Shown: one piece after another, positions 4,530-13,233 of the stretch | Layout of the letters: every line of letters starts with the position of its first letter | Numbering within the stretch: position 1 is the stretch's first letter | Source: Candidatus Brocadiaceae bacterium | GTDB taxonomy: Bacteria > Planctomycetota > Brocadiia > SM23-32 | NCBI GenBank assembly: GCA_003567495.1 | Contig: PWZK01000298.1 | Span: 1-13,233 of the forward strand | DNA length: 13,233 nucleotides | Reading direction: 5' to 3' | Translations under genes and position numbers: made by a program | The notes under the pieces: generated by a model | What the model saw: the letters and a program-made list of their open reading frames with translations, nothing else | Told to the model about the DNA's origin: nothing | Database searches by the model: none

Positions 4530-5378
4530 ATGACATCCGTCGGGATAGATTCGGGGAGCGTGGCCGTCAAAGGCGTCGCCATGGACGGTGAAGAGCTTTT
4601 ATCGGTCCAGATAGAGCCGGCCGGCACTGATATTGCCGCGCAGTGCAGCCGTATGACGTCGAGGTTGAAAGACGTCCTTCCCACGGAGTGCCATACCCCG
4701 GTGTGTTTTACGGGATACGGGCGGGAGAATTCAGGTGAGGCCGCCTACAGCGTGAGTGAAATATTGGCCAACGCACTCGGGGCCGGATGGGCATGGCGTA
4801 ACTGGTCACGTATGAAGGAAATGGGCGAGCAATTCTATGGCAACCCGGAGCCTGTGCGGAAGACGGACAAGTTCAATACTATAATTGATGTAGGCGGGCA
4901 GGACTGTAAAGTAATAACGCTCGGAGCCGGTGGAGTCATTGAGGGGTTTGCCATGAACGACAGATGCGCGGCCGGCACCGGCAGGTTTTTGGGGGAGCTG
5001 GCGGCTGTTCTTCAGCTGAAAGGGCTTCGAAGGCTCGATGAACTGGCGCTTGGGAGTTCCGAGCCGGCGCTTATATCCAGCGCCTGCACAGTTTTTGCCG
5101 AGTCAGAGGTGGTTTCTATGATTGCAAAAGGTGTCTCTCCGGCAAATATCGCAGGCGGCGTATTCAGGGCTGTAGCCGACAGAACGGCCGAGCTGGCCGA
5201 GAGCTTGGGCTGGTGTGGGCCGGTATTTTTTGATGGGGGCCCCGCGCGGCTCGGGGCGCTGCGCGATTCGCTTCAGGCAAGGCTTGCCACAACAGTATCC
5301 GTGCCCGCCTGCCCGCAGCATATCACCGCTGTGGGGGCGGCGATTTATGCCCGAAACAGGAGGGATCTGAGCGTATGA
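4530..5378 (+). CDS. BadF/BadG/BcrA/HgdC-type ATPase (CoA-dehydratase activase-like)
   Basis: A 282-aa cytoplasmic ATPase of the ASKHA fold. GIDSGS (5-10) is the phosphate-1 loop, IDVGGQD (119-125) phosphate-2, and FFDGGPAR (233-240) the C-terminal nucleotide-binding part. Cys146 in NDRCAAGTGRF and Cys186 in SSACTVFAESE match the two cysteines that bind the shared [4Fe-4S] cluster of dimeric activators such as HgdC. Known members drive ATP-dependent electron transfer to 2-hydroxyacyl-CoA dehydratases, benzoyl-CoA reductases or double-cubane-cluster proteins. No such partner is present here. An extra stretch of about 25 residues (88-114, rich in W, R, M) lies before phosphate-2, and the usual SEI-x-x-H-A segment reads SEILANALGA (77-86). 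Two bases follow the propeller stop and the 3' end overlaps the lipoprotein gene. A cytoplasmic redox ATPase among exported proteins is odd. Confidence 0.87.
   Translation: MTSVGIDSGSVAVKGVAMDGEELLSVQIEPAGTDIAAQCSRMTSRLKDVLPTECHTPVCFTGYGRENSGEAAYSVSEILANALGAGWAWRNWSRMKEMGEQFYGNPEPVRKTDKFNTIIDVGGQDCKVITLGAGGVIEGFAMNDRCAAGTGRFLGELAAVLQLKGLRRLDELALGSSEPALISSACTVFAESEVVSMIAKGVSPANIAGGVFRAVADRTAELAESLGWCGPVFFDGGPARLGALRDSLQARLATTVSVPACPQHITAVGAAIYARNRRDLSV
5358..5364 (+). promoter_or_regulatory. strong Shine-Dalgarno for the lipoprotein gene
   Basis: AGGAGGG lies inside the 3' end of the activase gene, 10-11 nt before ATG 5375. It is the only strong ribosome binding site within the four-gene operon and supports the ATGA-overlap start. 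Confidence 0.7.
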
Positions 5379-6217
5379 AACTCAAAAAAAAAGAGATTTT
5401 CAAACTGTTCCTGGTCCCGGTAGCAAGCCTGGTTTTCGGACTGCTCCCGGTCGGCTGCCGCGCAATTCCGCTGCGTCGACTCCGGAGGCCGCAGGAGCTT
5501 TCCCGCGAGGAAGTGATCGCCGCACTGGAAGAAAAAACACTTCATTTTTCAACTCTCAGGGATACGAGGGGTTCGCTGGATATTGTCCGGGAAACCGTGG
5601 AAGGCCGTGAGCGCTTTCCTTCGGTACGTGCGCTGATGGCATTCGACAGGGAACTGCCCGGGCTTTATCTGCGTACCGAGCGGCTGGGACAAAATATCTT
5701 TACGCTGCGCGCTCATAAGGACGGTTTCTGGCTTGAAATACGGGATACACACGAGATCATAACCGGCAGTGATAAGGCTTACGAACGCATGCCGCATCTT
5801 ATAAGGCCGGGGGAAGCGGCGCTCTGGTTTGCAAATCCACGGTGGCTGGGACTGACCTGGGATGAAACGCTGATGCATACCGGCCGCCACGAATACGTTT
5901 TCGAGGTTGAGCTGAGCGGGTTTCCGTTCAGAAAAGTAACTGTCGACAGATACGATCTTCACATCAACTCGATAACGTCCTACGACATTTTAGCCGAGAT
6001 CAATACCGTGGTGGAGATGGACAGATACAGGTGGAGGGAAGGTGGCTTGTTTCCCTACAGGCTGGCTATTTACAGGCCTCAGGAAGGTTATGATATTACT
6101 TTAAACCTGGGCCGGCCGGAGTTTGACCACGACATTCCGGAAAGTTTCTTTATGCCGCGCGAGCGGCCGGGCTGGGAACACATCGATCTTGACCGTTCCC
6201 CTCCCTCTGATTTTTAG
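5375..6217 (+). CDS. probable lipoprotein with a LolA-like region
   Basis: A 280-aa protein. A basic start (MKLKKKE) and hydrophobic segment (10-24) lead to LPVGC with Cys28 as the likely lipidated residue. The -3 position is Pro, which is unusual for a lipobox, so lipidation is probable but not certain. The mature part (about 40-260) alternates hydrophobic strands and contains patterns seen in LolA/LppX-type and DUF4292-like folds: a mid-protein FTLRAHKDGFWLEIRDTHEI strand pair, a central KVTVDRYDLHINSITSYD strand pair, and a late FPYRLAIYRP strand before the C-terminal helix. Such proteins bind lipids or lipoproteins in the periplasm; the substrate here is unknown. The gene overlaps the activase stop by 4 nt (ATGA) and ends with tandem stops TAG TAA. 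Confidence 0.65.
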   Translation: MKLKKKEIFKLFLVPVASLVFGLLPVGCRAIPLRRLRRPQELSREEVIAALEEKTLHFSTLRDTRGSLDIVRETVEGRERFPSVRALMAFDRELPGLYLRTERLGQNIFTLRAHKDGFWLEIRDTHEIITGSDKAYERMPHLIRPGEAALWFANPRWLGLTWDETLMHTGRHEYVFEVELSGFPFRKVTVDRYDLHINSITSYDILAEINTVVEMDRYRWREGGLFPYRLAIYRPQEGYDITLNLGRPEFDHDIPESFFMPRERPGWEHIDLDRSPPSDF

Positions 6218-6378: not shown

Positions 6379-6804
6379 ATGACAATTCTGGCTCTGGATC
6401 ACGGCGAGAAACGTATCGGGGCGGCCTTCAGCGATTTATCGGGCTCGGTGGCGCTGGGGCTTGAGACCATCGAGGTCGACGATTGTGGGGGAGAGATAGA
6501 AAAAGTAAGGGAAATTGTCGAGAAACGCGGAGTTGAAACTATAGTCGTGGGGCTGCCCAAGCACATGGATGGCTCCGAGGGACAGCGTGCAAGGCGGGTC
6601 CGGGGATTTGTGAAAAGGCTGCGCAGGGTGCTGCCCGATGTAAGATACGAGTTTGTGGATGAGCGCTACACTTCCGTGCAGGCGAACAGAGTTCTGAGCG
6701 AAGAGGGGGCCGACAGAGACGCCCGCAAAAAAAATGTCGACAGGGTGGCGGCTCAGTTTATCCTGCGGCGTTTTTGTGACAGGCCGGATGATACAGGTGC
6801 GTAA
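6379..6804 (+). CDS. ruvX: RuvX/YqgF-family Holliday junction resolvase-like nuclease
   Basis: A 141-aa protein of normal length for the family, which has an RNase H fold. LDHGEKRIG (6-14) gives the first catalytic Asp (Asp7), VVGLPKHMDGSEG (56-68) is the conserved central loop, VDERYTS (93-99) supplies Glu95, and KKNVDRVAAQFIL (117-129) carries the final Asp121. YqgF is implicated in recombination-intermediate processing and in pre-16S rRNA 5' maturation in E. coli. The start is supported by AAAAGGA (6366-6372) just upstream. The last codons (GGT GCG TAA) lie inside the left edge of a dispersed repeat. The next genes encode a possible DNA-binding membrane fusion and RecG, fitting a recombination neighbourhood. 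Confidence 0.95.
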   Translation: MTILALDHGEKRIGAAFSDLSGSVALGLETIEVDDCGGEIEKVREIVEKRGVETIVVGLPKHMDGSEGQRARRVRGFVKRLRRVLPDVRYEFVDERYTSVQANRVLSEEGADRDARKKNVDRVAAQFILRRFCDRPDDTGA

Positions 6805-6970: not shown

Positions 6971-8632
6971 ATGCGAATAGCTTTCGTTTCGGACATTCAT
7001 GCGAACCTTGCGGCCTGGAATGCGGTTCTTGCAGATACTTCCGCCCGTTCGGTTGATAAGATTATATGTCTCGGCGATATCGTGGGGTATGGGCCGCAGC
7101 CGGCCGAAGTGTTGAGCAGTGTCTATGCAAATGTTGATTATTTTGTCCTGGGCAATCATGATGCGGTGGTAGGCGGGCTTATGGAGCCTTCCGGGTTTAA
7201 CCCCCTGGCAGGCAAGCTGATTGAGCATACCCGCAGCTTGCTGGGTGTTCGCGCTCATCGTTTTTTCAGGCAGGTGCCTTTGCTTCTCAGACACGCGGAA
7301 TTTGAGGCCTCACATGGATCGGTGTCGGCGCCTGGCAAATTTCTTTATTTAACCGGCGAGCGCGATGCCAGGGACGCCTGGAGAAAATCATCCTCCTCTC
7401 TCATATTCGCCGGACACACGCATGCGCTTTGCCTGCACGCCCTCGCTCCCGGCGATCGTTATCGGCGTCTGAAATCTCCTTCCGGCCGTGTGCCTCTTCA
7501 GACGGGGCATCGCTACATTGTAAACTGCGGCTCGGTAGGTCTGTCTCGAAGCGGAGATTTCAGGGCCGGCTACGTGATTTACGACACCGGTGCAAAGACG
7601 GTAAGCTGGCGCCGGCTGCCATACGATTTGCAGTCCTTTTGCCGCGCCGTACGCTCTACCTATGCCGACCCGAAGCTCGCCGGTTTTCTCCTCAAGAGGG
7701 TTGAGCGCTGTTCACGCAGCCCCGTTCGTGAGCTGATAGATTTTACTCCGGGCCGTTCGACTGTCTCCGCAGAAGTTACGGTAAAACGGGATATAAATCA
7801 GATCAGAGGACGGCTCAGGCGCTGGCGTCTGGCTGCAATAGCGGCACTTTTTCTGCTGCTGCTGATTGCCTCTGGAGTTGTGTTGGGCTTTCGGCGGTTG
7901 CCGCGCAGTCAAACTATCGGGGCGGAAGTAAAAGATTTGATTCGTCCCCGGCTCTCACTGGATGGCTGGATTTACGATTATATGCTTTCAGAGAGCCATG
8001 CCGGCAGGCCGCTGCCGCAGTCATGGTCGGCCGCGCTTTCTGATGCCGGGCGCCAGTCCGTCAGGTATGCAGGCGGAAGGTTGGAGGTATCGTCGAAAGA
8101 AAAAAGACCTCTTACTGTTTTCCTGCAGCCGATATCCACCGAGCATATTCGAAGGATTAAGTGGGAAATTGATGCTCTGGTTTCGGGGCATTGGGATGGA
8201 GAGACGCCCGTGCTCGTTCTGGATTATACCGCCGATGACGGTTCCGTTACGGAAGGGGCATACCGCGTTGCTTTGCGGGAAGTGGACGGTGCAATGCAAA
8301 GAACCCGAACCTTGGCTCTCCCCGCCGGCACGGCGGCCGTAAGACCGCGTATGTATTTTAATGCGGCCGGCTTTTTTTTGATCGACAGCATAAGCGCCGA
8401 GTTGATGCCAACGGACGAAAAATCGCTGCTTCTTCGCGGCCCTCTGGATCTTAACAGCGCATCCGCCGCGGATCTTGAGTCGATCCCGGGCGTCGGGCCG
8501 GCATTATCCGGCCGGATAGTAAAGTACAGACGCAAGGAAGGCGGATTTAAAAATGTCGACGAGCTGATACGGGTGAGCGGTATAGGCGAGGTCACGCTGG
8601 AGAGGATAAAAAAATATGTTGTGGTGGAGTAG
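6971..8632 (+). CDS. metallophosphoesterase - TM - beta-sandwich-like - ComEA-like HhH fusion protein
   Basis: A 553-aa single-frame fusion. Residues 1-210 are a calcineurin-like metallophosphoesterase of YfcE/MJ0936 type with all metal motifs: SDIHAN (7-12), GDIVGYGP (35-42), GNHD (61-64), SHGS (114-117) and GHTH (148-151). It has no signal peptide, so this part is cytoplasmic. A basic segment (RGRLRRWR, 279-286) precedes one membrane helix (287-307), predicting the C-terminus outside. Residues about 320-480 look beta-rich; the end (FNAAGFFLIDSISAELMP, 463-480) resembles the last strands of carbohydrate-binding jelly-roll domains. Residues 491-553 are a ComEA-like double helix-hairpin-helix (LNSASAADLESIPGVGP, GGFKNVDEL, VSGIGEVTLERI), a fold that binds double-stranded DNA without sequence specificity in DNA uptake. 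Function is unknown. A DNA-linked membrane phosphodiesterase is one inference, supported by ruvX upstream and recG 14 nt downstream. ATG 6971 is fixed by the SDIH motif despite a poor ribosome binding site. Confidence 0.85.
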   Translation: MRIAFVSDIHANLAAWNAVLADTSARSVDKIICLGDIVGYGPQPAEVLSSVYANVDYFVLGNHDAVVGGLMEPSGFNPLAGKLIEHTRSLLGVRAHRFFRQVPLLLRHAEFEASHGSVSAPGKFLYLTGERDARDAWRKSSSSLIFAGHTHALCLHALAPGDRYRRLKSPSGRVPLQTGHRYIVNCGSVGLSRSGDFRAGYVIYDTGAKTVSWRRLPYDLQSFCRAVRSTYADPKLAGFLLKRVERCSRSPVRELIDFTPGRSTVSAEVTVKRDINQIRGRLRRWRLAAIAALFLLLLIASGVVLGFRRLPRSQTIGAEVKDLIRPRLSLDGWIYDYMLSESHAGRPLPQSWSAALSDAGRQSVRYAGGRLEVSSKEKRPLTVFLQPISTEHIRRIKWEIDALVSGHWDGETPVLVLDYTADDGSVTEGAYRVALREVDGAMQRTRTLALPAGTAAVRPRMYFNAAGFFLIDSISAELMPTDEKSLLLRGPLDLNSASAADLESIPGVGPALSGRIVKYRRKEGGFKNVDELIRVSGIGEVTLERIKKYVVVE

Positions 8633-8658
8633 GCGCTTAATATCCAATGACAAAGGAA
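8626..8658 (+). repeat. dispersed repeat copy 3 spanning a stop codon and the recG start
   Basis: GGAGTAGGCGCTTAAT (8626-8641) is identical to 205-220, and 8639-8658 matches 264-283 at 19 of 20 positions; the middle module present in copy 1 is absent. The TAG stop of the fusion gene (8630-8632) and the recG start ATG with its first four codons (8647-8658) both lie in the repeat. Confidence 0.65.
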
Positions 8659-9837
8659 AGAAAAATACTTTTCACTGATCCCGGTTGTCTTAAAGGAATC
8701 GGCTCGGCCCGGTCGAAGCAGCTTGCCCGGCTGGGCTTGCGCAGGGTATATGACCTGCTTTTTCACCTTCCGAGAGATTATGAAGACAGACGCCGCATCA
8801 CACCCATACGTAAGCTCAAAGAGGGCCGGGTGGCGGTGATCTCCGGCACTGTTCTGGACGTGGAATTTAAAAGGGGGCGCTCACGTCAGGGGATTCTTGA
8901 GGTGCTCGTATCGGATGGCACGGGAGCGCTTGCGCTGACCTGGTTCAACGCACGTGCGTCCTGGACGCGGCGTTTCAGGGATCGCAGTAAGATCGTTGCC
9001 TGCGGCAAGGTGCAGTATTACCGGGGACCGCAAATCGTATCGCCGGATTATGCCCTCGGAGACAACGCGGAACAGTCCCCGAAGTTCGGTCGCATTCTTC
9101 CGCTTTACCCTCTTACGGAAGGTATTTCACAGGTAATGATGCGAGGTATCGTGCGTTCCGCCCTGGATATGGCCGCTGAAAAGGTGGTAGATATAATACC
9201 GCCCGCTCTGGCGGAAGAAAAAGGATTCGGGGACAAAACGGAGGCGCTGCGGACCGCTCATTTTCCCGATTCACCTGAGTCGGCGGCTATGGCGAGAAAA
9301 AGGCTTGCATACGAGGAGTTGCTTGTATTTCAGACCGCCTTTGCACTGCGCAGGTCGGTGGTAAAGAACTTAAAGGGGTGTTCATTCAAGACCGGCAGGA
9401 ACGTGGAAAGGCGGATCAGGCGCCTTTTTCCTTTCGAGTTTACGGAAGCACAGAACGAGGTGATAGAGGAGCTATGCAGAGACCTGCGTTCCGAACGTCC
9501 AATGCACCGGCTGTTGCAGGGAGATGTGGGGTGCGGCAAGACCGTGGTGGCTGTGTATGCGCTGCTGTCGGTTCTGGCCGAAAGCAGCAAGGGCTACCAG
9601 ACGGCGTTCATGGCGCCTACCGAAGTGCTTGCCGAGCAGCATTATCTGACGCTCGAGCGGCTTCTGGCCGGGACAAACGTCCGCATTCTGCTATTGAAGG
9701 GAAGTCTGCCGCCTCAGCAGCGTTGCGATGCCCTGGCCGCTATGGAGCGGGGTGAAGTCGACCTCGTGGTCGGCACCCATGCTCTTTTGCAGGAAGATGT
9801 CGCGTTCAGAAAGCTGGCACTTGCGGTAATCGACTAG
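8647..9837 (+). CDS. recG: RecG N-terminal part: wedge domain and most of helicase lobe 1
   Basis: If the TAG is obeyed, this 396-aa product ends at Asp396, the D of the DEQH box. It keeps the N-terminal helical segment (GCLKGIGSARSKQLARLGL), the junction-binding OB fold (about 60-145) and Walker A (292-299), but lacks the catalytic Glu and all of lobe 2. It should not be a working helicase alone, although the wedge could still bind branched DNA. Confidence 0.7.
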   Translation: MTKERKILFTDPGCLKGIGSARSKQLARLGLRRVYDLLFHLPRDYEDRRRITPIRKLKEGRVAVISGTVLDVEFKRGRSRQGILEVLVSDGTGALALTWFNARASWTRRFRDRSKIVACGKVQYYRGPQIVSPDYALGDNAEQSPKFGRILPLYPLTEGISQVMMRGIVRSALDMAAEKVVDIIPPALAEEKGFGDKTEALRTAHFPDSPESAAMARKRLAYEELLVFQTAFALRRSVVKNLKGCSFKTGRNVERRIRRLFPFEFTEAQNEVIEELCRDLRSERPMHRLLQGDVGCGKTVVAVYALLSVLAESSKGYQTAFMAPTEVLAEQHYLTLERLLAGTNVRILLLKGSLPPQQRCDALAAMERGEVDLVVGTHALLQEDVAFRKLALAVID

Positions 9838-9870
9838 CAGCATCGTTTTGGCGTTCGCCAGAGGCTTGAT

Positions 9871-10731
9871 TTGACCCGTAAAGGGCGACGTCCGGACGTT
9901 CTGCTTATGACCGCCACTCCGATACCGCGCACGCTCACTCTGACATGTTTCGGCGACATGGATGTCAGCATCATCGACAGGATGCCGCCCGGCCGTCCGC
10001 CGGTTCGCACTTCATGGCTTGCGCCGGCGAACTGGGAACGTGCCTACAAAGAAGCTCTGGCCGAGCTCAAAGCGGGGCGGCGTGTTTTTGTCATCTTCCC
10101 GCTGGTCGAGACCAATGATGAACTTGATCTTACAAGCGCAACCGAGGCCTATCTTGAATTAAGCCGGGGTATATTCAGCGATTTTAAGTGCTGTCTTATG
10201 CACGGGCGGATGCCTGCGGCGGAGAAAAAGGAAAAAATGAAAGGGTTCAGGGATGGTGCTTTTCAGCTAATGGTTGCGACGACCGTTGTGGAGGTCGGCA
10301 TTGACGTGCCGGAGGCCACGGTGATGATAGTCCAGCATGCGGAGCGTCTCGGGCTGTCGCAGCTTCATCAGCTCAGGGGTCGTATCGGGCGCGGGACTGC
10401 GCCGGGATTCTGCTACCTGCTCGCCGAGCCTTCTACCGAGGATGCCAGGCGCAGGCTGGAGGTGCTTGCAGAAACCAGGGACGGTTTCAAAATAGCGGAA
10501 AAAGATCTCCAGCTGCGCGGCCCCGGCGATATGTTTGGCACGGAGCAGAGCGGAATGCCGGAATTTCGGAGTTTTGATTTTTCTGATATGAGTTTGCTCA
10601 AAGAAGCGCGTAGCGATGCGTTTGACCTTGTTGAGGACGATCCCGAGCTTCAGCGCCCGGAAAACTCTTTGCTCAAAAAAGCGATAAAACAGCAATACGC
10701 CGGACGATTCGTGTTCGGGGGGGTGTTGTAA
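9871..10731 (+). CDS. recG: RecG C-terminal part: helicase lobe 2 and TRG region
   Basis: This is the same frame as the N-terminal part, with the 11 codons after the TAG (QHRFGVRQR and so on) preceding TTG 9871. TTG 9871 follows a weak AGAGG (9860-9864), so re-initiation is conceivable. ATG 9907 is another start but would lose sequence just before TATPIPRT. The segment keeps MTATPIPRTL (motif III), HGRMP, VATTVVEVGIDVPEATVMIV, the QLRGRIGRG arginine-finger motif, and the conserved C-terminal KDLQLRGPGDMFGTEQSG hairpin. It is most simply the second half of the broken gene rather than a separate protein. Confidence 0.65.
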   Translation: MTRKGRRPDVLLMTATPIPRTLTLTCFGDMDVSIIDRMPPGRPPVRTSWLAPANWERAYKEALAELKAGRRVFVIFPLVETNDELDLTSATEAYLELSRGIFSDFKCCLMHGRMPAAEKKEKMKGFRDGAFQLMVATTVVEVGIDVPEATVMIVQHAERLGLSQLHQLRGRIGRGTAPGFCYLLAEPSTEDARRRLEVLAETRDGFKIAEKDLQLRGPGDMFGTEQSGMPEFRSFDFSDMSLLKEARSDAFDLVEDDPELQRPENSLLKKAIKQQYAGRFVFGGVL

Positions 10732-11178: not shown

Positions 11179-12027
11179 ATGAACGAGACGCGATATACAG
11201 AACGGATGAAAAGAGCATTCCTGACGGGTCTTGCCGCTTTATTCCCGATTCTCATTACCATTTTTCTGCTCACCTGGTTGTACGGACAGATGGACGCCTT
11301 GCTTGGCAGCAAAGTCAATGTCGTGGCCCGGCGCACCCTGGTGCAGAACGAGAGACTGTTCGGCATGGCGTTTCCCGGTGCGCCCGATGAAGTTTCGGAA
11401 ACCTCCGAAACGCGCCGCGAGCATGTTGTTGATAATTACCCTGAGTTCATCGGGGGCGTTGTAGGCATTTTGGGTGTTGCCTTTGCGGTTTTGATCATGG
11501 GTTTCTTCCTGCGCGGTTTTGTGGGCGCGAAGGTGATGAACAAGGTGGACGGTTTTTTCGAGCGATTTCCGGTAGTCAAGGGGATATATCCGCATGCAAG
11601 GCAGGTGGCCGATTTTCTGTTCGGATCCCGCGACAATCTCGAGTTTCAGCGCGTTGTTGCCGTTGAGTATCCCCGCAAAGGAATATATTCTCTCGGTTTT
11701 TTGACCGGGTGCGGTCTTAAAGACGTGCAGGAACATGCGGGACAGAATCTGGTTGCCATATTTATACCGAACTCGCCTGCGCCGCTTACCGGGTTCGTGA
11801 TAATGGTTCCCAAAAACGAGGTTGTGAGTTTGGATATGCGCGTGGAAGATGCAATAACCTTCTGTGTGACCGCCGGGATGGTAAGCGGCAAAGGTGACCG
11901 GTCGCAGCAAGTGACGACACGTCTTCCGGCAGGCGGATCGGCGCCCGCAACCTCGCGGCGGGAGGAGCCGGGAGTCGTAGAGGATAAAGATGAAGGTGAT
12001 GGAGAGGTCGGGAGCGAGGCACAGTAA
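11179..12027 (+). CDS. DUF502 family inner-membrane protein
   Basis: A 282-aa membrane protein. Two hydrophobic helices are visible: 14-36 (FLTGLAALFPILITIFLLTW) and about 91-113 (IGGVVGILGVAFAVLIMGFF). The soluble part contains the family hallmarks: the FPVVKGIYPHARQVADFLFG region (130-149), NSPAPLTGFVIMVPKNEVVSLDM (198-220) and VEDAITFCVTAGMV (222-235). DUF502 proteins include plant COV1-like proteins; their bacterial function is unknown. A spacer of about 43 residues lies between the helices (residues 45-88), and the C-terminal 30 residues are acidic and low-complexity. ATG 11206 (residue 10, MKRAFLTG) resembles the usual family start and could be the true one; neither start has a clear Shine-Dalgarno. 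hpf follows after 93 nt. Confidence 0.88.
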   Translation: MNETRYTERMKRAFLTGLAALFPILITIFLLTWLYGQMDALLGSKVNVVARRTLVQNERLFGMAFPGAPDEVSETSETRREHVVDNYPEFIGGVVGILGVAFAVLIMGFFLRGFVGAKVMNKVDGFFERFPVVKGIYPHARQVADFLFGSRDNLEFQRVVAVEYPRKGIYSLGFLTGCGLKDVQEHAGQNLVAIFIPNSPAPLTGFVIMVPKNEVVSLDMRVEDAITFCVTAGMVSGKGDRSQQVTTRLPAGGSAPATSRREEPGVVEDKDEGDGEVGSEAQ

Positions 12028-12068
12028 TTAAAATGCTGATTGTCAGGCCTTAACTTCTGTTGTTGGTT

Positions 12069-12083
12069 TATGAAATATGCGGG
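12069..12083 (+). repeat. TATGAAATATGCGGG repeat upstream of hpf
   Basis: An exact second copy of the 15-mer at 6279-6293. It is followed by TATAAC (12091-12096), a possible -10 element, without a convincing -35 at the right distance. It could be part of an hpf promoter or a dispersed repeat remnant. Confidence 0.45.
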
Positions 12084-12105
12084 TTCAGGCTATAACCTTT
12101 GATAA

Positions 12106-12113
12106 GGGAGGTG
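12106..12113 (+). promoter_or_regulatory. Shine-Dalgarno that fixes the GTG start of hpf
   Basis: GGGAGGTG lies 7 nt before GTG 12121 and is a near-perfect ribosome binding site. It decides the non-ATG start, which also gives the conserved N-terminus MDITISARHM. Confidence 0.85.
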
Positions 12114-12120
12114 AGAAGAA

Positions 12121-12423
12121 GTGGATATTACCATAAGCGCCAGGCATATGGATTTGACGGATGCGATGGATGTCCACATAAGGGAGCGTATTGAAAAGCT
12201 GCCACGTTATGACGATCATATAATCAGTATAGACGTGACGCTGGATGACGATGCGGCACAGGAGCATGTCGAGATAATTGCCAGGTGCCACAAGGATGTT
12301 CTGGTGACAAAATCTCGCGGGCACGACCTGTATGCGGCAATTGACGATGCATTTGATAAACTGGAACGCCGCGTCACCAAATTACATGACAAACTGACTG
12401 AGAAAAGGCCCCGCCGAAGGTAG
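12121..12423 (+). CDS. hpf: short-form ribosome hibernation promoting factor (HPF/RaiA family)
   Basis: A 100-aa protein from GTG 12121. The beta-alpha-beta-beta-beta-alpha pattern of the family is visible: ITISARHMDLTDAMDVHIRERI (3-24), ISIDVTL, HVEIIARC, DVLVTKSRGHDLYAAIDDAFDKLERRV and a basic tail KLTEKRPRRR. It should bind the 30S decoding and P/A-site region and silence ribosomes in stationary phase or stress. The length is that of the short form; the C-terminal dimerisation domain of long HPF is absent, so 100S formation would need another factor. The TAG stop is followed by an in-frame TAA three codons later. It lies upstream of ptsN and HPr, as in the proteobacterial rpoN-hpf-ptsN region, but rpoN is replaced here by the DUF502 gene. 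Confidence 0.95.
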   Translation: MDITISARHMDLTDAMDVHIRERIEKLPRYDDHIISIDVTLDDDAAQEHVEIIARCHKDVLVTKSRGHDLYAAIDDAFDKLERRVTKLHDKLTEKRPRRR

Positions 12424-12468
12424 CAGGGCCTGTAAATCCAATTCATGTTTAAGGGATAACAGCGATTT

Positions 12469-12939
12469 ATGGAATTGTTTGAAAACTTTTCAAAAGAACA
12501 TGTATGTATGGAGCTCGGCGCAGCCGGGCGGGATGAAGCGCTTCATGAAATGCTGAAAATGTTGGTAAAATCGGGCCGGATTCCGAAAGAAAACCTGGAT
12601 ACTGTTTTGGTGGAGCTCGTCAGGCGCGAGACTCTGGGCACTACGGCAATAGGTCGGTCCATGGCTCTGCCGCACGCCAGAATGGAAGAAATTTCGAATA
12701 TTTCCATAGCTCTGGGGATGAGCAGGGAGGGTATTGAATTTCATGCGCTTGACGGGCAGCCTGTCAATGCGATTTTTTTGGTGGTAGGGCCGAGGTCTGA
12801 TTCCGACAGCTATATAGGTGCAATGAAGACCGTAAGCAATATGACACAATCAGAGGATTTCCGCCGGTTTCTCTTCAGGTCTGATTCCGAAGAAGAGGTG
12901 GTCGATCTTGTCAGAGAAATGGCCGGTAAGATGGGATGA
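12469..12939 (+). CDS. ptsN: PTS EIIA domain protein (Ntr/fructose type)
   Basis: A 156-aa single EIIA domain of PtsN/fructose-type length. The phospho-acceptor is His69 in MALPHAR, preceded by RRETLGTTAIGRS, the hallmark of this fold. Later conserved strands IEFHALDGQPVNAIFLVVGP (93-112) and the ATG-rich helix after it are also intact. It should accept phosphate from HPr and act as a regulatory or transport-linked phosphocarrier; no EIIB or EIIC is in the window, favouring a regulatory role. Start ATG 12469 lies 45 nt after hpf, with a weak AAGGGA 13 nt upstream. Its stop TGA overlaps an ATG of the next gene. Confidence 0.92.
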   Translation: MELFENFSKEHVCMELGAAGRDEALHEMLKMLVKSGRIPKENLDTVLVELVRRETLGTTAIGRSMALPHARMEEISNISIALGMSREGIEFHALDGQPVNAIFLVVGPRSDSDSYIGAMKTVSNMTQSEDFRRFLFRSDSEEEVVDLVREMAGKMG

Positions 12940-13233
12940 TTTTCAATAAAATGAATGCTGATAACGAATACAGAAGTGAGTTGCGCATTGGAAATCCGCT
13001 GGGGTTTCACGTGCGTCCGGTTCAGCGCTTTGCTGAGCTCGCGCAGGCGTTTGAATCACAGGTTACGGTCGAAATCGATGGAAGGGAATCCTCCGGAAAG
13101 AGCGTGATGGGGCTCATGAGTCTGGGCGGACGCCATGGGGCCCGCATGAAGATAAGGACCAGCGGTGAGGATGCCCGGCAGGCTCTGAATGTTATCCGTT
13201 ACCTGGTCGATCAGGATTTTTTTGTTGAAGATG
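12936..13233 (+). CDS. ptsH: HPr phosphocarrier protein (3' end beyond the window)
   Basis: A partial gene, open to the right edge. From ATG 12951 the protein begins MNADNEYRSELRIGNPLGFHVRP. His20 in GFHVRP is the PEP-derived phosphorylation site (commonly GLHARP), and Ser51 in SSGKSVMGLMSLG is the equivalent of the regulatory Ser46 phosphorylated by HprK. ATG 12936 is in the same frame, overlaps the EIIA stop as ATGA, and would add MIFNK; either start may be used, and translational coupling favours 12936. About 94-99 residues are visible against a usual total near 85-100, so little is probably missing. Presence of the Ser site suggests an HprK homologue elsewhere in the genome. Confidence 0.9.
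   Translation, partial: MIFNKMNADNEYRSELRIGNPLGFHVRPVQRFAELAQAFESQVTVEIDGRESSGKSVMGLMSLGGRHGARMKIRTSGEDARQALNVIRYLVDQDFFVED

Follow-up and report, generated by a model that had tools for sequence, protein, structure and literature searches.

A metallophosphoesterase joined to a membrane helix, a jelly-roll ectodomain and a ComEA-type tail in Planctomycetota: a tentative receptor-like enzyme

Introduction

What might a single bacterial protein do that joins a calcineurin-like metallophosphoesterase (MPE), a membrane helix, a jelly-roll-like domain and a double helix-hairpin-helix, (HhH)2, of the ComEA type? The question is raised by a gene lying between ruvX and recG in a 13,233-nucleotide stretch of DNA (the window; contig PWZK01000298.1, assembly GCA_003567495.1) from a Candidatus Brocadiaceae bacterium. 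A previous, sequence-only reading had taken the recombination neighbours as a hint of a role at the membrane-DNA interface, such as DNA uptake or the signalling of extracytoplasmic DNA. In this work, we place the fusion, as a rare form from Planctomycetota, in a wider receptor-like family of proteins, in which an MPE is followed by a transmembrane (TM) segment and an ectodomain. A receptor-like, membrane-anchored phosphoesterase with a sensing role is the function that we tentatively prefer, holding it at slightly less than even chances.

Architecture of the fusion protein

The frame at 6971-8632, on the forward strand, is uninterrupted over 553 codons, from an ATG start to a TAG stop, and comprises the following parts:

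6971..8632, forward strand: whole fusion gene, 553 amino acids (aa), MPE-TM-jelly-roll-(HhH)2, stop TAG; supported by a single open frame and by full-length homologues
6971..7705, forward strand: residues 1-245, calcineurin-like MPE (3RQZ/SapH type) that has its ligands and is predicted to be cytoplasmic
7727..7798, forward strand: residues 253-276, probably a flexible linker (predicted local distance difference test, pLDDT, below 50)
7829..7885, forward strand: residues 287-305, single membrane helix preceded by basic residues; modelled helix 276-308
7910..8410, forward strand: residues 314-480, jelly-roll ectodomain, with a fold like that of carbohydrate-binding modules (CBMs) and galactose-binding domains
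8444..8620, forward strand: residues 492-550, ComEA-type double helix-hairpin-helix (HHH_3, 6.7e-19; 8dss, 2.5e-13)

The open reading frame (ORF), the Pfam assignments and the AlphaFold2 model bear out the domain series first read from the letters: Metallophos, Metallophos_2 and HHH_3 all exceed their gathering cut-offs on one protein, and the jelly-roll and HhH regions were both modelled in the expected order. The full-length model, built from an 80-row alignment, has a mean pLDDT of 91.7; because its predicted template modelling score (pTM) is 0.52, the relative placement of the domains is not fixed. Its only stretch with a pLDDT below 50, residues 253-276, separates the MPE from the membrane helix, while the strands of the middle domain reach residue 480 and the HhH helices lie at 499-549. 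Scans for promoters and terminators, and for AGGAGG, gave no signals clearly above chance.

A search with the fusion protein (P0001) gave 605 matches at E up to 1e-10, of which the best 120 were listed. Eighteen of these, the fusion itself and 17 further proteins, carry both the MPE and HHH_3 at 99-100% coverage; the other 102, mostly 470-525 aa long, are without HhH. A chimera of sequencing or assembly, or a frameshift artefact, could be suspected from the 387 contigs of the source assembly and from an in-frame stop in the neighbouring recG, but the existence of full-length homologues, two of them in congeners with different neighbours, in effect refutes it. Constraint on the protein speaks to the same point: in pairwise comparisons of the three congeners the proportion of nonsynonymous differences (pN) was 0.21-0.46 and that of synonymous differences (pS) 0.58-0.88, pN being lower than pS in the MPE, linker plus TM, jelly-roll and HhH, each in all three pairs. 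As most of these comparisons are close to, or have reached, synonymous saturation, no pN/pS ratio is given.

A family with a constant enzyme and a variable ectodomain

The fusion fits a family, as delimited in this work, of MPE-TM-ectodomain proteins of the Planctomycetes-Verrucomicrobia-Chlamydiae (PVC) bacteria, with the MPE at the N-terminus, the membrane segment near residue 287 and the ectodomain beyond it. Where relatives lacking HhH are named, they belong to Lentisphaerae, Kiritimatiellae or Verrucomicrobia, as does the majority of the close hits in the genome scan. Three of the 18 fusion carriers are named, all of them Planctomycetota and one a Candidatus Brocadiia; a congener of the source genome, G002, is a Planctomycetota metagenome-assembled genome.

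When the MPE-TM part of a Roseibacillus relative served as the query in a further search, 254 proteins matched at E up to 1e-15, and the best 120 were evaluated. Of these, 112 carry LamG, PA14, F5/8, PF07953 or PF22825, and 108 of the 112 carry LamG; the totals were counted by eye, some of the proteins were checked directly, and the choice of query favours proteins of this kind. The variety of such domains after a shared MPE-TM part indicates that the latter is the constant portion of these proteins and the ectodomain the variable one. The combination of one conserved enzyme with diverse ectodomains is typical of ligand-sensing families.

Four receptor-like proteins of 776-1035 aa (L014 5965-9069, L028 6001-8955, L030 6001-8973 and L029 6001-8328) join the same MPE to LamG, PA14 or DUF2341; their sources include one Kiritimatiellia and two Roseibacillus.

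An unrooted MPE tree, built by a quick method with supports from the Shimodaira-Hasegawa-like approximate likelihood ratio test (SH-aLRT), included 80 of the 120 listed relatives, among them 17 of the 18 fusions, and 10 long ones; of the 40 left out, P0011 was dropped for its long N-terminal extension and the others for thinning. The HhH carriers group together with a support of 89, and P0020, which has no HhH match, falls inside the group. P0020 makes two state changes necessary, most simply one gain and one loss, although an unrooted tree cannot by itself polarize them.

All three genus genomes examined encode the full-length fusion; among the 72 other genomes of the class it was detected in none (E up to 1e-40). 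The class set of 75 includes 43 genomes with completeness of at least 90% and contamination of at most 5%, none of which has the fusion, the three carriers being 82-87% complete. In a draw of 392 genomes from the phylum, with up to three candidates scored in each among those listed, the full-length fusion was recovered from the source genome only. The remaining carriers are represented by protein sequences, without gene context. The search for relatives gave some match in each of its 58 genomes. Beyond the genus, the matches listed cover either the MPE or the HhH, not both, and fall mostly in MPE frames of 230-330 aa; some longer frames occur at MPE matches, such as those of 508 aa in G012 and 933 aa in G009. 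In one MPE locus of 241 aa (L094) no hydrophobic segment exceeded the threshold.

The phosphoesterase domain

The N-terminal domain matches Metallophos (PF00149; residues 1-152, 1.1e-14, 55.8 bits against a cut-off of 21.5) and Metallophos_2 (PF12850; residues 1-206, 4.9e-14, 53.0 bits against 27). Eight positions, D8, H10, D36, N62, H63, H115, H149 and H151, which we take to be the metal ligands and catalytic residues, have the same residue in all 80 aligned relatives: the active-site motifs, described as intact in the sequence-only reading, are indeed invariant. The overall fold is that of 3RQZ/SapH, the closest structure among the matches listed being 3RQZ, followed by SapH-like ones. SapH itself (3QFM) is a streptococcal protein to which the PDB title attributes asymmetric diadenosine tetraphosphate (Ap4A) hydrolase and phosphodiesterase activity. 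Chains of Mre11 or SbcD are absent from the structure-database matches listed for the MPE, 15 found by sequence and 50 in a second listing.

Membrane topology

Hydrophobic segments and their flanking lysines and arginines were counted with a Kyte-Doolittle scan, not with a trained predictor, and the counts include near-copies. The fusion has one such segment, at about residues 287-305, and exactly one is present in each of the 18 fusions. One is also the rule in the listed relatives without HhH (91 of 102, with none over the threshold in 10 and two in 1) and in the long relatives P0121-P0242 (116 of 122, with two in 6), where the strongest segment starts at 292-375. Lysine and arginine are richer on the N-terminal side of the segment in 16 of the 18 fusions, in 84 of the 92 relatives having a segment and in 84 of the 122 long relatives. 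By reading, the MPE motif of the fusion begins at residue 1, with no signal sequence ahead of it. Given this absence and the charge bias, the MPE is likely to lie inside, and the jelly-roll and HhH outside (N-in/C-out), which upholds the external position earlier assigned to the HhH.

The same data make it very unlikely that the protein has the opposite topology, or is a secreted DNA-degrading enzyme, whose MPE and HhH would lie on one side and act jointly on DNA, a parallel being the DNaseI-like HhH enzyme of Thioalkalivibrio. Fusions of a nuclease to a ComEA-related tail do exist (PMC4777378), and 9yi2, of the endonuclease/exonuclease/phosphatase (EEP) family, bears a ComEA-like HhH. Yet in the present protein the sole hydrophobic segment separates the MPE from the HhH, no leading signal sequence is seen, and the MPE is closest to 3RQZ/SapH, with no Mre11/SbcD chain among the matches listed.

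The jelly-roll ectodomain

Residues 311-486, modelled alone, gave a pLDDT of 95.1 and a pTM of 0.90. The best structural matches of this model are CBM70, the ligand-binding domains of Eph receptors, phage tailspike modules and CBM16. The hyaluronan-binding module 4D0Q, presumably numbered CBM70, as well as CBM16 and CBM22, have a fold similar to that predicted here, at 12% identity; no Pfam CBM family matched the fusion protein at E up to 0.1. The evidence suggests, in the first place, an ectodomain of a kind that binds polymers or polysaccharides; signalling of extracytoplasmic DNA to a cytoplasmic phosphodiesterase is a less favoured possibility.

The ComEA-type tail and DNA uptake

HHH_3 matches residues 492-550 with 68.2 bits against a cut-off of 27. 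The best structure-database match is 9yi2, presumably human EEPD1, at 4.4e-19 over two copies; 8dss, 8dfk (7.8e-11) and 2duy (5.7e-10), the latter a ComEA-related protein which we assume to be from Thermus, follow. The NCBIfam ComEA models remain below cut-off, TIGR01259 (comE) with 61.7 against 152.35 bits and TIGR00426, narrowly, with 51.6 against 53.1.

Both hairpins had been described as intact. This holds for their glycines, conserved over the 18 fusions at G507 (17/18), G509 (18/18), G537 (16/18) and G539 (15/18), but not for all the sites equivalent to the lysines tested in Bacillus subtilis ComEA: with the register set by the 164-193-197-199 spacing on the fusion-ComEA alignment, K164, K193, K197 and K199 correspond to Leu512, Val541, Arg545 and Lys547. 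A basic residue is found at these sites in 6, 10, 6 and 13 of the 18 fusions, respectively, and the net charge of the HhH ranges from -8 to +7. In B. subtilis, according to PMC9747964, K164A and K199A each lower transformation more than 100-fold, and K193A and K197A 2-4-fold; the purified Geobacillus K166A protein (equivalent to K164) does not bind DNA, and K201A (equivalent to K199) shows an about 2-fold loss. The same text notes that HhH domains typically contact DNA through the backbone; DNA binding by the tail of the fusion is thus possible, not implied.

Could the fusion, then, be a DNA-uptake factor, a ComEA paralogue that binds incoming DNA externally, its MPE having a processing or signalling task in the cytoplasm? 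The HhH is clearly of the ComEA type, two of the four tested sites are basic (Arg545 and Lys547), 10 of the 18 fusions have a lysine or arginine at the K193 site and 13 have one at the K199 site, 2duy likewise has a leucine at the K164 site, and Gram-positive ComEA has the identical order of membrane helix, middle domain and HhH (PMC9747964). Competence components are also at hand: ComEC is present once in each of the three genus genomes, the source genome included, along with DprA-type proteins (2, 2 and 1) and ATPases of the type II secretion and type IV pilus kind (10, 13 and 5 matches, two of the 13 below cut-off). The lineage may well be competent, through ordinary parts: each of the three genomes encodes a separate ComEA of 124-129 aa, with an arginine at the K164 site where the fusion has Leu512. 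To this are added the missed NCBIfam cut-offs, no com genes seen beside the fusion gene in the three genomes, and the 102 of 120 listed relatives that do without HhH. An uptake function, as put forward in the sequence-only reading, is therefore disfavoured and seems improbable to us.

That the fusion replaces ComEA was rejected, each genus genome having its own short one. Recent capture of the HhH from the host ComEA is likewise unsupported: the tail shares 41-44% identity with the three genus ComEAs and 33-57% with other fusions, many of which are no more distant. So short a domain does not allow a reliable tree.

A further ComEA-type HhH lies at the C-terminus of a 471-aa protein of the source genome (L110 268-1683, contig C102), where it follows an acidic linker; by reading, this protein has several hydrophobic stretches.

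Proposed function

The receptor-like reading would work as follows. A cytoplasmic MPE would be connected, by a flexible linker and one membrane helix, to an external jelly-roll, to which a ComEA-type (HhH)2 would have been added in one Planctomycetota lineage. The ectodomain would most likely hold an extracytoplasmic polymer, the jelly-roll a glycan and the HhH a second ligand, possibly DNA or protein. Holding the ligand would cluster or position the protein, and so set where, and how strongly, the MPE hydrolyses its phosphoester, which might be a nucleotide such as Ap4A, by analogy with SapH, or a phosphoprotein. The order of the domains, the intact active-site motifs, the single hydrophobic helix with its charge polarity, the ectodomain fold and the lectin-type ectodomains of homologues are established at the level of sequence and model; the ligands, the substrate and the coupling of outside binding to inside activity are what we infer. 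That PVC bacteria more generally possess one-component transmembrane receptors with a SapH-type nucleotide-signal output and exchangeable lectin-type ectodomains, one Planctomycetota lineage reading extracellular DNA together with polysaccharide, for instance in a biofilm matrix, is a speculation we consider unlikely as a whole.

A plainer possibility, to which we give about one chance in three, is a constitutive tether: the ectodomain would merely fix the MPE at the envelope, through wall glycan or a partner protein, the HhH being a structural or protein-binding tail, with no signal crossing the membrane. The low-confidence linker (pLDDT below 50), the lack of recurrent neighbours, the wide range of HhH charge and the non-basic K164 site in 12 of 18 fusions would all suit it; moreover ComE1 of Pasteurella, a relative of ComEA, binds fibronectin besides DNA (PMC2601033). 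A mere tether, however, does not readily account for one conserved enzyme combined with diverse ectodomains, nor for hairpin glycines kept in 15/18 to 18/18 fusions.

Genomic context

In the source genome the fusion gene is flanked by RuvX (6379-6804) and RecG (8647-10731), both identified by Pfam; since its stop lies 14 bases ahead of the recG start, the two may be co-transcribed here. The source is the only one of the three genus genomes with this order. The gene of G001 has a secDF-like gene on one side and, on the other, one for a 189-aa membrane protein, followed by xerC- and mfd-like genes; that of G002 adjoins a fumarylacetoacetate-hydrolase-like gene. These names come from reading translations rather than from family searches. 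In both genomes, recG is on a contig other than that of the fusion, in G001 beside rpsB- and tsf-like genes, again by reading. Over 21 loci of the wider family, the only families present in at least 3 were the gene itself (17) and a cluster of reverse-strand ORFs (4); this test is crude, as the choice of ORFs was a greedy one by length and the contigs include several short ones. The ruvX/recG placement was accordingly rejected as functional evidence. Of the earlier interpretation, the architecture and the probable N-in/C-out topology stand, while the argument from recombination neighbours falls: a caution that a striking neighbourhood can be accidental.

The recG frame carries a lone in-frame TAG at 9835-9837, presumably in helicase motif II, and is the only match over cut-off in the source assembly, which is 82% complete. 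No stop was seen in the recG of the congeners, the G002 copy running to the contig end. The TAG may be an error, a polymorphism or the mark of a genuinely broken gene; general read-through is unlikely, because TAG also terminates the fusion gene.

Elsewhere, the window encodes a 664-aa protein with a SpoIVB-type S55 peptidase domain (438-2432; PF05580, 1.2e-10) and, at 4530-6217, a stand-alone 282-aa ATPase of the BadF/BcrA type (acyl-CoA dehydratase activase fold), then a 280-aa protein without Pfam or NCBIfam match. At 11179-13232 follow one another a DUF502 membrane protein, a short ORF resembling a ribosome hibernation factor, a PtsN-like EIIA of the phosphotransferase system (PTS) and an HPr-like ORF, the second and the last named by reading only.

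Comparison with known systems

Each domain of the fusion is known; no named family with their combination, MPE-TM-jelly-roll-HhH, came up in Pfam, NCBIfam or the open-licence literature among the matches listed. In the latter, PMC8195603 mentions calcineurin-like domains solely in its account of the domains found on TRADD-N proteins.

The solved chains of 3RQZ, an MPE of Sphaerobacter thermophilus, and of SapH, of about 240-260 residues, correspond to the MPE part alone, whereas the MPE of the fusion additionally carries a membrane helix and an ectodomain. ComEA (ComE operon protein 1; 8DSS, 8DFK) shares with it the C-terminal (HhH)2 and, in Gram-positive bacteria, the succession of membrane helix, middle domain and external HhH (PMC9747964). 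Unlike ComEA, the fusion has a large N-terminal enzyme, a jelly-roll in place of the oligomerization domain and a leucine at the K164 site, in a genome that also encodes its own short ComEA. DNaseTA of Thioalkalivibrio and EEPD1 (9YI2) similarly combine a phosphodiesterase-type enzyme with a ComEA-like HhH, but the enzyme superfamily differs from that of the MPE, and DNaseTA is described as having two domains only (PMC4777378).

The closest counterparts are the MPE-TM-ectodomain proteins of Lentisphaerae, Kiritimatiellae and Verrucomicrobia (such as P0079, P0088 and P0122), which have the same MPE, a similarly placed membrane segment and then an ectodomain, either without Pfam match or of the LamG, PA14 or F5/8 type, no HhH being found in them. 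Among the known transmembrane enzymes for the turnover of nucleotide signals in bacteria, most have GGDEF/EAL, HD or DHH output domains. If the receptor-like reading is true, external lectin-like domains coupled to an internal calcineurin-like phosphoesterase would represent a further type of one-component receptor in a large and little-studied group of bacteria. The HhH version makes it possible to test directly whether such an envelope protein reports extracellular DNA.
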